Assembly: GCA_026418295.1 (NCBI GenBank)
Contig: JAOABP010000003.1
Location: 1 to 64,000, forward strand
DNA: 64,000 nucleotides
From: Caldifarciminota bacterium
GTDB taxonomy: Bacteria; Hydrothermota; Tepidihabitantia; Tepidihabitantales; Tepidihabitantaceae
Reading direction: 5' to 3'
Below are positions 2,301 to 9,258 of the stretch, one piece after another. The number at the start of each line of letters is the position of its first letter. Position 1 is the stretch's first letter. The notes under the pieces were generated by a model. That model was not told the origin of the DNA. It searched no databases and worked only from the letters and a program-made list of their open reading frames with translations. Position numbers and translations under genes: made by a program.

Positions 2301-3311
2301 CTACTGATCCGGGGCTCTACGGGACTGGAACGCAGAGTAACCGAGCGCCACCAGCTGCTCCTCAGGAATGAAGCGCAGGGCAGCAGAGTTCAGACAGTAG
2401 CGCCTGCCGGTCGGAGGCGGACCGTCATCAAAAAGGTGGCCGAGGTGGGATTCAGCATAACGGGACCGGACTTCAATCCTCAGCATATTATTCGTCCGGT
2501 CTTCACGGGTTAATATGTTTTCCGCCACCAGCGGCTGATAGAAGCTGGGCCAGCCGGTGCCGGAGTCAAACTTGTGCTCTGAGGAGAAAAGCGGTTCGCC
2601 GGAAACCACATCCACATAGATGCCGGACCGCTTCTCATTCCAGTATTCATTTTTGAACGGCGGTTCGGTTCCCTGCTCCTGCGTCACCCGGAACTGCAGC
2701 GGAGTGAGAATCTCTTTCAGTGTCTCAGGTGCCGGTTTGCGGTAACCAAGCCAGTAACCGGAACGCTCCGGGAAGAGCCGGAAATAGGGATGCTTCTCCC
2801 AGACTCTGTCCACATAAACTGTTCTGCCTGAACTCTGATGATAGGAGTGAAACCGCGCCGGACATTTGCGGTAAAAGTCCTGATGATACTCCTCAGCCGG
2901 GAAGAATTCCCCTGCCTGCTGAATCCGGGTGACAATCCGCTGCCGGAAGATCTTCGCCGCCTCCAGGCGCCTGATCCCCTCCGCTGCGAGCTGACGCTGG
3001 AGTGAATCTCGATAGAAAATGGCGGTCCGGTACTGGTGACCGCGGTCCGCAAACTGTCCGCCATCATCGGTCGGGTCAATGTTTTTAAAAAACACCTCAA
3101 GCAAACGCTCATAGCCAATCTGCTCAGGATCATATTCAATCTGCACCGCCTCATAATGTCCGGTTCTGCCGGAGCATACCTGATCATAACTGGGATTGCG
3201 GATTGAACCGCCGGTATAACCCGATGTCACCTGAATCACCCCGGGCAGTGATTCAAACACATACTCCAGACACCAGAAACAGCCACCCGCAAACATCGCA
3301 ATGCCACTCAT
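2301..3311 (-). CDS. msrAB: Fused peptide methionine sulfoxide reductase MsrA/MsrB
   Basis: Repairs both S- and R-methionine sulfoxide in proteins. The MsrA half comes first, with the catalytic GCFWC at residues 10-14. The MsrB half (about residues 200-325) has GTGWPSF and the catalytic Cys in [11 protein letters not shown]. The two CxxC pairs that bind zinc in many MsrB proteins are not seen, as in the zinc-free subtype. No signal peptide, so probably cytoplasmic. It diverges from a glutaredoxin-like gene, a possible reductant partner. ATG 3311 has no Shine-Dalgarno site but has TCTAAT six bases upstream; M6 (3296) is an alternative start. Confidence 0.95.
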
Positions 3312-6861: not shown

Positions 6862-7296
6862 TCAAGCATTGGAACCCCCGGTATTTTCCAAAATCGTTAT
6901 CCGGAAGCTGACCGGACAGTCCGGACGGAGCATCGCCCGGACCGAGCAGTATTTCTCCTGCGAGAGTTCAACCGCCCGCTGGACTGCTGCCCGGTCAATA
7001 CCGGTGCCCAAAACAACATATTCCAGTTCGATACCTGTGAATACCCGGGGGTGCTCATCCCGCCTCTCTGCTCTTACATTTATCTCCAGACCACTAAAGT
7101 TCACCCGCATCTTCTTCAGCAGTGATACCACATCCATTCCGGTGCATCCGGCAAGAGCAATCAGCAGCAGTTCCATCGGTGTTGCTGCCGTATCCTTCCC
7201 GCCATGATCCGGTCCGGTATCCATTACCAGCGCATGACTGGAACCGGAGATGCCTACAAACTGCATCGCTTCAGTCCAGCGCACCTTCGCTTCCAT
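6862..7296 (-). CDS. OsmC/Ohr-family protein
   Basis: OsmC-fold protein of 144 residues. The conserved pattern is visible: TPMELLLIALAGCTGMDV with one family Cys, and a second Cys in SQEKYCSVRAML. Family members are thiol-dependent hydroperoxide reductases. This one looks like the YhfA-type branch, whose substrate is unclear. GGGAG lies five bases before ATG 7296. It continues the redox theme of msrAB and the glutaredoxin-like gene. Confidence 0.88.
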   Translation of the reverse strand: MEAKVRWTEAMQFVGISGSSHALVMDTGPDHGGKDTAATPMELLLIALAGCTGMDVVSLLKKMRVNFSGLEINVRAERRDEHPRVFTGIELEYVVLGTGIDRAAVQRAVELSQEKYCSVRAMLRPDCPVSFRITILENTGGSNA

Positions 7297-7306
7297 CAAT
7301 ACTCCC

Positions 7307-7747
7307 TTAATTGTTTTTTGCTCCCTGAAGAATCCACTGCCGGATCACCTCAAGCTTTTCCGGCGCCGGTTTTCTCCCGAATGGATGCCCCTTCTGAAGA
7401 TACAGAAAGAGGAGACTTGAGTCCGGCTTGCCCGGCACTACATTCGGGACCGAATCGGTGCCCCCTGCCATTACCGCCTCGTAGGAGTCCAGCGCATAAT
7501 TACCTGCCATATCCTCTTTTGTATGACAATCGCCGGCCAGTTCCCTGAGAATCGGAAGCACATCCCGCTGGAAGGAAACAGCCGGTGCGGGAGAAGGAGA
7601 TTCATTGACAGTTTCAGGGACCGTGACCGGGATCATCGGTGCCGGACTCTCGGCTGGCACAGTTTCCCGCAGCTGATTTTTGTTCTTTGCCGGGCAGAAG
7701 AGAAGAAAGGCGGTGCACGGAAGTAAAACCCGGTAAAGAAACTTCAT
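7307..7747 (-). CDS. Small exported cytochrome c-like protein with an AxxCH motif
   Basis: An N-terminal hydrophobic export signal is followed by a linker and one domain of the planctomycete-type cytochrome C (PSCyt1) shape: FQRDVLPIL, then AGDCH, then VVPGKPDSSLL, then IRQWILQGAKNN. The haem motif should read CxxCH, but the first Cys codon is GCC (Ala). The usual distal MPPG is HPFG. It may bind haem by one thioether with His/His ligands, or not bind haem. The promoter places transcription start about two bases before the ATG. Confidence 0.7.
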   Translation of the reverse strand: MKFLYRVLLPCTAFLLFCPAKNKNQLRETVPAESPAPMIPVTVPETVNESPSPAPAVSFQRDVLPILRELAGDCHTKEDMAGNYALDSYEAVMAGGTDSVPNVVPGKPDSSLLFLYLQKGHPFGRKPAPEKLEVIRQWILQGAKNN

Positions 7748-7794: not shown

Positions 7795-9258
7795 TCAGCG
7801 ACAGAGTACCAGCGGCTTCCGGAATCCGCCCGGTCCGGTAAGCAGATAAACACCTGCCGGTAATGAACGGGCAAACCGGAGCCGGTAAACGCTGTATCCG
7901 ACAGATGTTATCTCCACCAGTCCACTTGCAACCTTTCCGCCGCTTTGGTCGAATACCGCAATTTCCCCATTACCCGCGGGCAGATACAGATAGCACCACC
8001 CCTTGACTGGATTGGGATTAACCCCCTGCTGCAGCACTGCCTGTCGGGCTTCGGCAACGCCAATCCCTCCCCACCAGGCATCAACACTGTAGGGCACCCC
8101 GTTCAGCACCTCCAGCCTGCCGGAATAAACCGGAAAACTGTCGTTAATGCAGTTTACGGTTGTAGCACATTCAACCCCAATATACCACCTGCCTCCGGCA
8201 GGATACCGGACCGTCATCAATTTACGAGCTCCGGGCGCAGTATCCGCAAAATCACAGCTGGAGCGGAAGGCAAATCCATTCCATTTCAGGTAAAGGTTGA
8301 GCTGAAACGAATCCGCCCCCTGAACCAGCACGCAGAGCGATTCCGCCCCTGGCGGCACATCAATCGCAAAATGATGATACTGCCGGTCACCGATCCGGGC
8401 AAACTCAGGCGCCTCCATGCCCCGGTCCATGATGCGCAGAACGCCCGGGAGAAGAATCGCCTTCAAGCGCGGTAACCCGACCCCATCAAGTGCATATCTG
8501 AGTACCGCCATCATCAGATGGAGTTGTTCACCCTGAGCAAAACCTTCAGGATGGGTCCCGACCACCACCACCCGTCCGCTGGTGTCAGCCCCCTTCCAGG
8601 CCCAGCCCGCACACCGGTTGTGCGCCGGATGGCCGAGGGTATCATAACGCAAAAGCACCTCGGTTCCCGCCGGCCAGTCCAGCGACTCATTGGCATAGGG
8701 TCCGCCGTTGAGGTACAGCCCGGTGATATAAAAATCGCCACCGAATGAGTCGTAAGCCAGCAGCGGCGACCCCGGTGGAATAAAATTTCCCACCCAGGCA
8801 CCACCGATACCGGTGTTTCTGGTCCTGCCGGGCCAGAGGTGATAGAAATAGGGTGACACTCCGGAATCCAGATTGGACAGCGAAGCCAGATAGGCACCCG
8901 CACAGGCACCGGTGTAACTGCCTCCCGCAGCAAAAAACTGCCGGATACACTGCCGGCCCGATTCACCCAGTGCCCGACTGTGACTTACCACATCCCCGCC
9001 GTTGGTGAAAATTGCCCGGAACCGGGGTGCACCATCCGGATAGAGCAGATAGCCGTTTTCGTCCAGTGAACAGCCGGCGATCACCCGCCGCAGCAGCAGC
9101 GAATCCTGCGCCGAAACAAATTCCAGACTCAAACCCAGACTTTCCGCCGCATAAAGCCGGGTACGATGGGTGAGACCGGTGCCCCCGTCCATGAAAACAT
9201 CCTTGTAAAACCCCTCAGCGCTGGTGAACAGCAGAAGACACGTCAGCATCCAGTGCAT
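7795..9258 (-). CDS. Secreted BPL_N/glutamine-amidotransferase-fold protein with C-terminal sorting domain
   Basis: A signal peptide (1-16) is followed by a class I amidotransferase-like domain of the BPL_N type: IFTNGGDVVS, then the nucleophile elbow SYTGACAGAY with Cys. The middle (about 290-390) resembles a bacterial pre-peptidase C-terminal beta domain. The end (about 405-487) has the NPNPVKG start and LPAGVYLLTG finish of Por-type sorting domains. It is likely exported; the substrate is unknown. Its start codon sits seven bases past a -10 box. Confidence 0.75.
   Translation of the reverse strand: MHWMLTCLLLFTSAEGFYKDVFMDGGTGLTHRTRLYAAESLGLSLEFVSAQDSLLLRRVIAGCSLDENGYLLYPDGAPRFRAIFTNGGDVVSHSRALGESGRQCIRQFFAAGGSYTGACAGAYLASLSNLDSGVSPYFYHLWPGRTRNTGIGGAWVGNFIPPGSPLLAYDSFGGDFYITGLYLNGGPYANESLDWPAGTEVLLRYDTLGHPAHNRCAGWAWKGADTSGRVVVVGTHPEGFAQGEQLHLMMAVLRYALDGVGLPRLKAILLPGVLRIMDRGMEAPEFARIGDRQYHHFAIDVPPGAESLCVLVQGADSFQLNLYLKWNGFAFRSSCDFADTAPGARKLMTVRYPAGGRWYIGVECATTVNCINDSFPVYSGRLEVLNGVPYSVDAWWGGIGVAEARQAVLQQGVNPNPVKGWCYLYLPAGNGEIAVFDQSGGKVASGLVEITSVGYSVYRLRFARSLPAGVYLLTGPGGFRKPLVLCR

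Follow-up and report, generated by a model that had tools for sequence, protein, structure and literature searches.

Cytochrome c folds with and without covalent haem

The protein examined here resembles members of the PSCyt1 family (PF07635, planctomycete cytochrome C domain) in its above-threshold profile match, in the span of its domain and in the osmC synteny that it shares with CxxCH members, and it differs from PSCyt1 haem proteins in that the first haem Cys is an Ala and the axial Met is a His. An AxxCH motif is described for the mitochondrial cytochrome c of euglenozoa, for which, as in our case, a known maturation system is undetected (accessible part of PMC8262978). On the other hand, the euglenozoan protein belongs to another cytochrome subfamily, whereas here the axial Met is replaced, no oxidase was detected and the product is a putative bacterial envelope lipoprotein.

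A cytochrome c fold that persists without its haem is also on record, as qNOR retains a NorC-like fold that lacks haem c and is fused to the NorB part (PMC6713497, in the portion of the text available). This domain is a precedent for a retained haem-less cytochrome c fold; in our protein the cytochrome c fold is a predicted one. Unlike the qNOR domain with its NorB fusion, the present gene is a stand-alone ORF of 146 aa, and the COX1 family (PF00115), which we take to include NorB, was found in 0 of the 28 genomes surveyed. A weak domain match to the LIC11213 family lipoprotein (NF047812; E 6.3e-5, 23.1 bits) lies far under the 100-bit cut-off of that family. No natural bacterial AxxCH cytochrome was found in the literature searched, which offers a partial view and is no proof of absence in print.

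The AxxCH gene and its orthologues

The window (the whole 64,000-nucleotide stretch of DNA that was analysed) carries a gene whose product has A71-G-D-C74-H75 where CxxCH is expected and HPFG as the distal motif at residues 121-124 (Table 1). The ORF, the AxxCH motif with its GCC Ala codon and HPFG are all present as an earlier note on this DNA had described them, and the PSCyt1-type surroundings that it had reported are borne out by PF07635, which matched the window protein with E 9.9e-8 and 32.9 bits (cut-off 22). In profile searches PF07635 also scored above its gathering score in all 6 AxxCH genomes, where PSCyt1 occurs once per genome and is this gene. The window domain is one PSCyt1-type cytochrome c domain, in which a single Cys and two invariant His are found. 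A lipid-anchored, envelope-facing product is most likely, the lipid anchor being predicted from the sequence by eye; in the other five AxxCH proteins, too, a hydrophobic segment is followed by a Cys. The downstream OsmC-like gene also matched NCBIfam PRK10738, below cut-off.

Table 1 Features of the AxxCH gene and its downstream neighbour (positions in the window)
Feature	Position	Strand	Remark
AxxCH PSCyt1-like putative lipoprotein gene	7307..7747	-	146 aa; open and conserved in six genomes
Probable lipoprotein signal peptide, lipobox Cys18, residues 1-18	7694..7747	-	by-eye reading
Pro/Ala/Glu-rich linker, residues 19-56	7580..7693	-	poorly conserved
Cytochrome c-like domain, residues 57-146	7310..7579	-	PF07635, AlphaFold2 model, VIA-align match to FoxE
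Ala71 codon GCC, at the place of the first haem Cys	7535..7537	-	
Cys74-His75, second Cys and proximal His retained	7523..7528	-	
His121 codon CAT, at the place of the axial Met	7385..7387	-	
OsmC-like gene, directly downstream of the AxxCH gene	6862..7299	-	PF02566 E 1.8e-20

AlphaFold2 predicted four helices for the window domain (pLDDT 86.0, pTM 0.80). Besides the window, its input held 38 of the 44 distant loci (L019, L041, L052, L053, L058 and L060 were dropped), and since all of these relatives carry two haem Cys, the model leans towards a cytochrome fold; the predicted structure carries no information on haem. FoxE, an iron-oxidising cytochrome (5mab) that itself has CxxCH and MP in the aligned stretches, was the best PDB profile match (E 6.7e-14, with a query alignment of mostly CxxCH relatives) and the best VIA-align match among the 16 chains compared (94 residues, 2.5 Å), with a Z of 10.4 that a chance arrangement of helical models can reach. 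Of the 10 PDB matches that Foldseek returned at E <= 10, not one reached E <= 0.001; the best was FoxE at a non-significant 0.052.

The gene was matched at E <= 0.01 in 15 of 100 relatives' genomes by protein search (a count ambiguous by one, depending on whether the own genome is included), and 15 of the 147 genomes of the phylum were matched by a profile built from the six AxxCH domains. Those 15 comprise six AxxCH and nine CxxCH genomes, the latter being seven members of the same family together with G082 and G120. CxxCH together with Met is present in all seven other gene-holding genomes of the family and in the two further genomes of the phylum, with M-Y in place of M-P in G082. More distant relatives were represented by 44 loci from named genomes, 43 of which cover the motif; two haem Cys were found in 43/43 (26 CxxCH and 17 CX4CH), and MP follows CH in 42/44, where one of the two exceptions is a truncated match. 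The CX4CH spacing occurs in L025, L029, L032, L034, L035, L038, L039, L041-L045, L047, L049, L051, L054 and L055, mostly in records labelled Bacteroidota. A match in G097 was set aside as weak (E 0.00265) and interrupted by two internal stops, and the 70 candidate stretches of the viral_contigs scan yielded no confirmed viral relative. In a tree with 31 of the 44 distant loci (13 were left out as near-copies, as partial or for containing X), the AxxCH rows form one branch with support 99/99, while their exact sister is left open at a fork with support 80/73.

The earlier note had said that close relatives all of the CxxCH type would point to a local mutation, and this is not what was found: six AxxCH genomes are spread across two genera (g1 and g2, three genomes each, the window genome included), and the comparison of homologs that it had proposed found Ala fixed in 6/6. 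The motif reads AGDCH or APDCH in all six genomes and the distal one HPFG or HPFN, again in 6/6, with the Ala encoded by GCC, GCA or GCT; the Cys-to-Ala replacement takes no fewer than 2 nucleotide substitutions and the Met-to-His replacement 3. The distance from His121 to the Trp of the last helix is 17 residues, and in the CxxCH domains of the family the Met stands at 17 in 5/9 and at 18 in 4/9. As the two spacings match, we read HPFG as a Met-to-His replacement at the ligand position, an equivalence that relies on the ungapped spacing and the shared Pro, MAFFT having put the window HPFG one gap block upstream.

Of the 15 genome pairs, 5 give a finite dS across the 90-residue domain, and their dN/dS (Nei-Gojobori) is 0.024-0.113; two of the five have a dS of about 2, near saturation. 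Synonymous sites are saturated in the other 10 pairs, with a dN of 0.12-0.20. Among the six AxxCH domains 57 of the 90 columns are invariant, and Asp73, Met80, Met93, Cys74, His75 and His121 are invariant in 6/6. Both substitutions are fixed under strong purifying selection.

Locus organisation and haem machinery in the family

A downstream osmC gene is found in 6/6 AxxCH loci, the window included, and in 7/7 CxxCH loci of the family, at a distance of < 25 bases in the six former and 0.1-2.7 kb in the seven latter. Between the cytochrome gene and osmC, several CxxCH loci hold a GTCxxCH protein and a DUF5777 beta-barrel (the latter assignment confirmed by Pfam for L070 only), whereas no gene lies between the AxxCH gene and osmC. 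Because the osmC neighbour is shared, we regard the AxxCH gene and the CxxCH gene of the sister genera as the same locus, and paralogy or transfer was disfavoured for the same reason, although the branching order in the tree leaves room at the fork mentioned above.

In G007 one ORF with a ResB stretch and Cytochrom_C_asm (L072:2477-3565, - strand) lies between the CxxCH gene and osmC, and the cytochrome and a CcsA-type synthase share one locus there. Full-length relatives of the GTCxxCH protein (E below 1e-80) occur, among the matches listed, in 5 of the 28 genomes, the query's own included; all five have CcsA and, again among the matches listed, none of them is an AxxCH genome. Many other genomes gave weak matches among those listed, mostly to the C-terminal part. 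One genome, G010 (84% complete), has CcsA and the GTCxxCH protein, with the PSCyt1 gene not detected. Downstream of osmC in G017, three consecutive cupredoxin-like ORFs were observed (L068:4838-6217, + strand), the middle one matching PF00127 with E 5.3e-11.

The 28 genomes surveyed for haem machinery belong to the family and order of the window, and the six AxxCH genomes are 90-98% complete. Attachment machinery was represented by PF01578 and PF05140 only, and haem b proteins by COX1 and cytochrome bd only; control genomes were matched in each haem-machinery search, and PSCyt1 matched 0 of 14 controls. Cytochrom_C_asm (PF01578, CcsA type) was detected in 8/28 genomes, namely the 7/7 CxxCH genomes of the family and G010, and in 0/6 AxxCH genomes. 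ResB (PF05140) gave matches in 4/28, one of them over cut-off, and in 0/6 AxxCH genomes, in a search that stayed mostly below cut-off even in CcsA carriers. The search for maturation genes suggested by the earlier note therefore ended with no CcsA or ResB match (0/6 each), which favours haem loss among its alternatives. As the AxxCH rows form one branch, the disappearance of CcsA together with the first Cys counts as one event on the tree and not as six independent ones.

Neither COX1 (PF00115) nor cytochrome bd (PF01654) was detected in any of the 28 genomes, and Cytochrome_CBB3 (PF13442) was matched in 4/28, all of them CxxCH genomes and all below cut-off, and in 0/6 AxxCH genomes. A second cytochrome c domain was undetected in the six AxxCH genomes with the PSCyt1 and Cytochrome_CBB3 profiles, which are imperfectly sensitive, as in the CxxCH genomes PF13442 detected 4/7 and PF07635 5/7. 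Ferrochelatase was found in 1/28 genomes (G007), thus in 0/6 AxxCH genomes, and HemB (ALAD) in 0/28. An argument from absent haem synthesis to a haem-free protein was dropped, because HemB and ferrochelatase went undetected in CxxCH relatives as well, HemB even in those with CcsA; failure to find haem synthesis is no proof that haem is absent. The CxxCH genomes presumably use haem and probably scavenge it. The family thus includes cytochrome c users with no detectable tetrapyrrole synthesis (HemB 0/28, CcsA 8/28).

Readings of the altered haem site

We consider it fairly probable that the AxxCH protein is an ex-cytochrome, which has retained the cytochrome c fold and has no covalently bound haem; that it binds no haem at all is an inference. 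The protein has probably been put to a new use in a lineage with no CcsA or ResB detected, because its sequence is tightly conserved despite the loss of two haem-holding residues. The ancestor of the two sister genera would have had a normal membrane-anchored PSCyt1 c-type cytochrome, with CxxCH and an axial Met, in a locus ending in osmC. The lineage would then have given up c-type cytochromes and the synthase CcsA and kept this gene, in which the first haem Cys may have become Ala and the axial Met His, with the domain held under strong purifying selection. An AxxCH protein in a lineage of System II ancestry would stay without attached haem even alongside CcsA, because among the first- and second-Cys variants of a 20-residue peptide that were offered to CcsBA, the one with homocysteine as first Cys was alone in receiving haem, and SXXCH received none (PMC8112865, as far as its available text goes).

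Some observations stand against the ex-cytochrome reading, among them the single event of loss on the tree and the imperfect sensitivity of the cytochrome c and ResB searches, both described above. The Met-to-His change yields a His/His pair, which is also suited to haem, Cys-His is retained in 6/6, and the stretch after CH still fits the PSCyt1 profile. That a His is conserved where the ligand should be argues for a cofactor of some kind; the loss of the first Cys and of the synthase argues against covalent haem. Among the three alternatives raised by the earlier note, haem loss with a kept fold is hence the favoured one, non-covalent haem stays as the main rival and a single-thioether haem finds poor support. 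Quite possibly, if short of probably, the old haem pocket has been rebuilt so that one Cys and two His make up a new site for a cofactor, either a bare metal or a scavenged haem between the two His.

Provided that the protein is haem-free, it is about one half likely that Cys74, His75 and His121 form a bare-metal site or act via the thiol, beside the OsmC-like protein. Three roles for these residues would fit the sequence: metal binding, a thiol with a buried pair, and non-covalent binding of scavenged haem. Taken by itself, the bare-metal proposal is the more daring part of the haem-free reading, with which it overlaps: a transition metal would sit at the old place of the haem iron, held by Cys74, His75 and His121 and perhaps by Asp73 or Met80, in a metal-binding or copper redox protein. 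It is consistent with a domain that holds a single Cys and just two invariant His, with the invariance of Asp73, Met80 and Met93, and with the cupredoxin-type genes that neighbour the CxxCH gene in one relative (L068; the PF00127 match of the middle one is given above). The proposal is nonetheless doubtful, as the candidate residues do not stand out in a domain so largely invariant, and for the same reason the invariance of the Cys and the two His is in itself weak evidence for a site.

Non-covalent haem, bound in b-type, bis-His fashion between His75 and His121 and scavenged from neighbours, we judge unlikely. In 6/6 the His stands precisely where the Met ligand would be, and the PSCyt1 consensus is retained in the pocket-forming stretch; the CxxCH relatives have CcsA and no detectable HemB, so that haem scavenging is plausible in the family. 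WOR-3 is among the phyla named with haem auxotrophs in the accessible part of PMC11139205, a name to which no tool tied the window's phylum, and the available text of PMC9599503 describes an engineered C14A Thermus cytochrome c552 whose apo-form was reconstituted with haem b. However, COX1, cytochrome bd, CcsA and a second cytochrome c domain all went undetected in the six genomes, the partner cytochrome is gone from the locus, and Cys74 is invariant although a purely b-type protein would not need it.

Very unlikely, in our view, is a single-thioether cytochrome c of the euglenozoan kind, with haem on Cys74 only and matured by some unrecognised enzyme. Its motif type, AAQCH in euglenozoa, is indeed AxxCH, and Cys74-His75 is invariant; euglenozoa do without the usual maturation systems and use the divergent synthase KCCS, according to the part of PMC8262978 at hand. 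But the euglenozoan AxxCH proteins serve a full respiratory chain, whereas the terminal oxidase families COX1 and bd were found in 0/28 genomes here, the axial Met is gone, CcsA was undetected in the six genomes, and the SXXCH peptides received no haem from CcsBA (PMC8112865, available text). The absence of CcsA, that of an oxidase and the CcsBA peptide data thus disfavour this analogue. A pseudogene, frameshift or sequencing error, whose decay could resemble the loss of two haem residues, has practically no chance of being correct and was rejected, together with a local mutation, as the ORF is open in six genomes with three different Ala codons, dN/dS is far below 1 and both substitutions are fixed in 6/6 under purifying selection.

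A cytochrome c fold without haem has a precedent in qNOR, and the ancestry of the present putative ex-cytochrome is ordinary; what is unusual is that the change is fixed, orthologous and tied to the loss of the synthase. Orthologues from before and after the change in one family let one ask what a haem-less cytochrome c does, and the order in which Cys, Met and the synthase were lost becomes addressable within one bacterial family. PSCyt1 matches above the Pfam cut-off would, on the ex-cytochrome reading, not always be cytochromes. If haem or metal is still bound, an old fold would carry its cofactor in a new arrangement, and if the cofactor site has been rebuilt, the gene would represent a natural, datable cofactor switch in a classic fold for electron transfer; the sister genera retain the CxxCH orthologue.

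Upstream of the AxxCH gene, window positions 7795-9258 (- strand) encode a secreted-looking protein of 487 aa with a BPL_N stretch, whose gene stands beside the AxxCH gene in L062 also and was not found in the stretches L063-L066. A few genes downstream, a fused methionine sulfoxide reductase A and B (PMSR plus SelR) is encoded at 2301-3311 (- strand), and its proximity to the OsmC-like gene makes an oxidative-stress setting possible.
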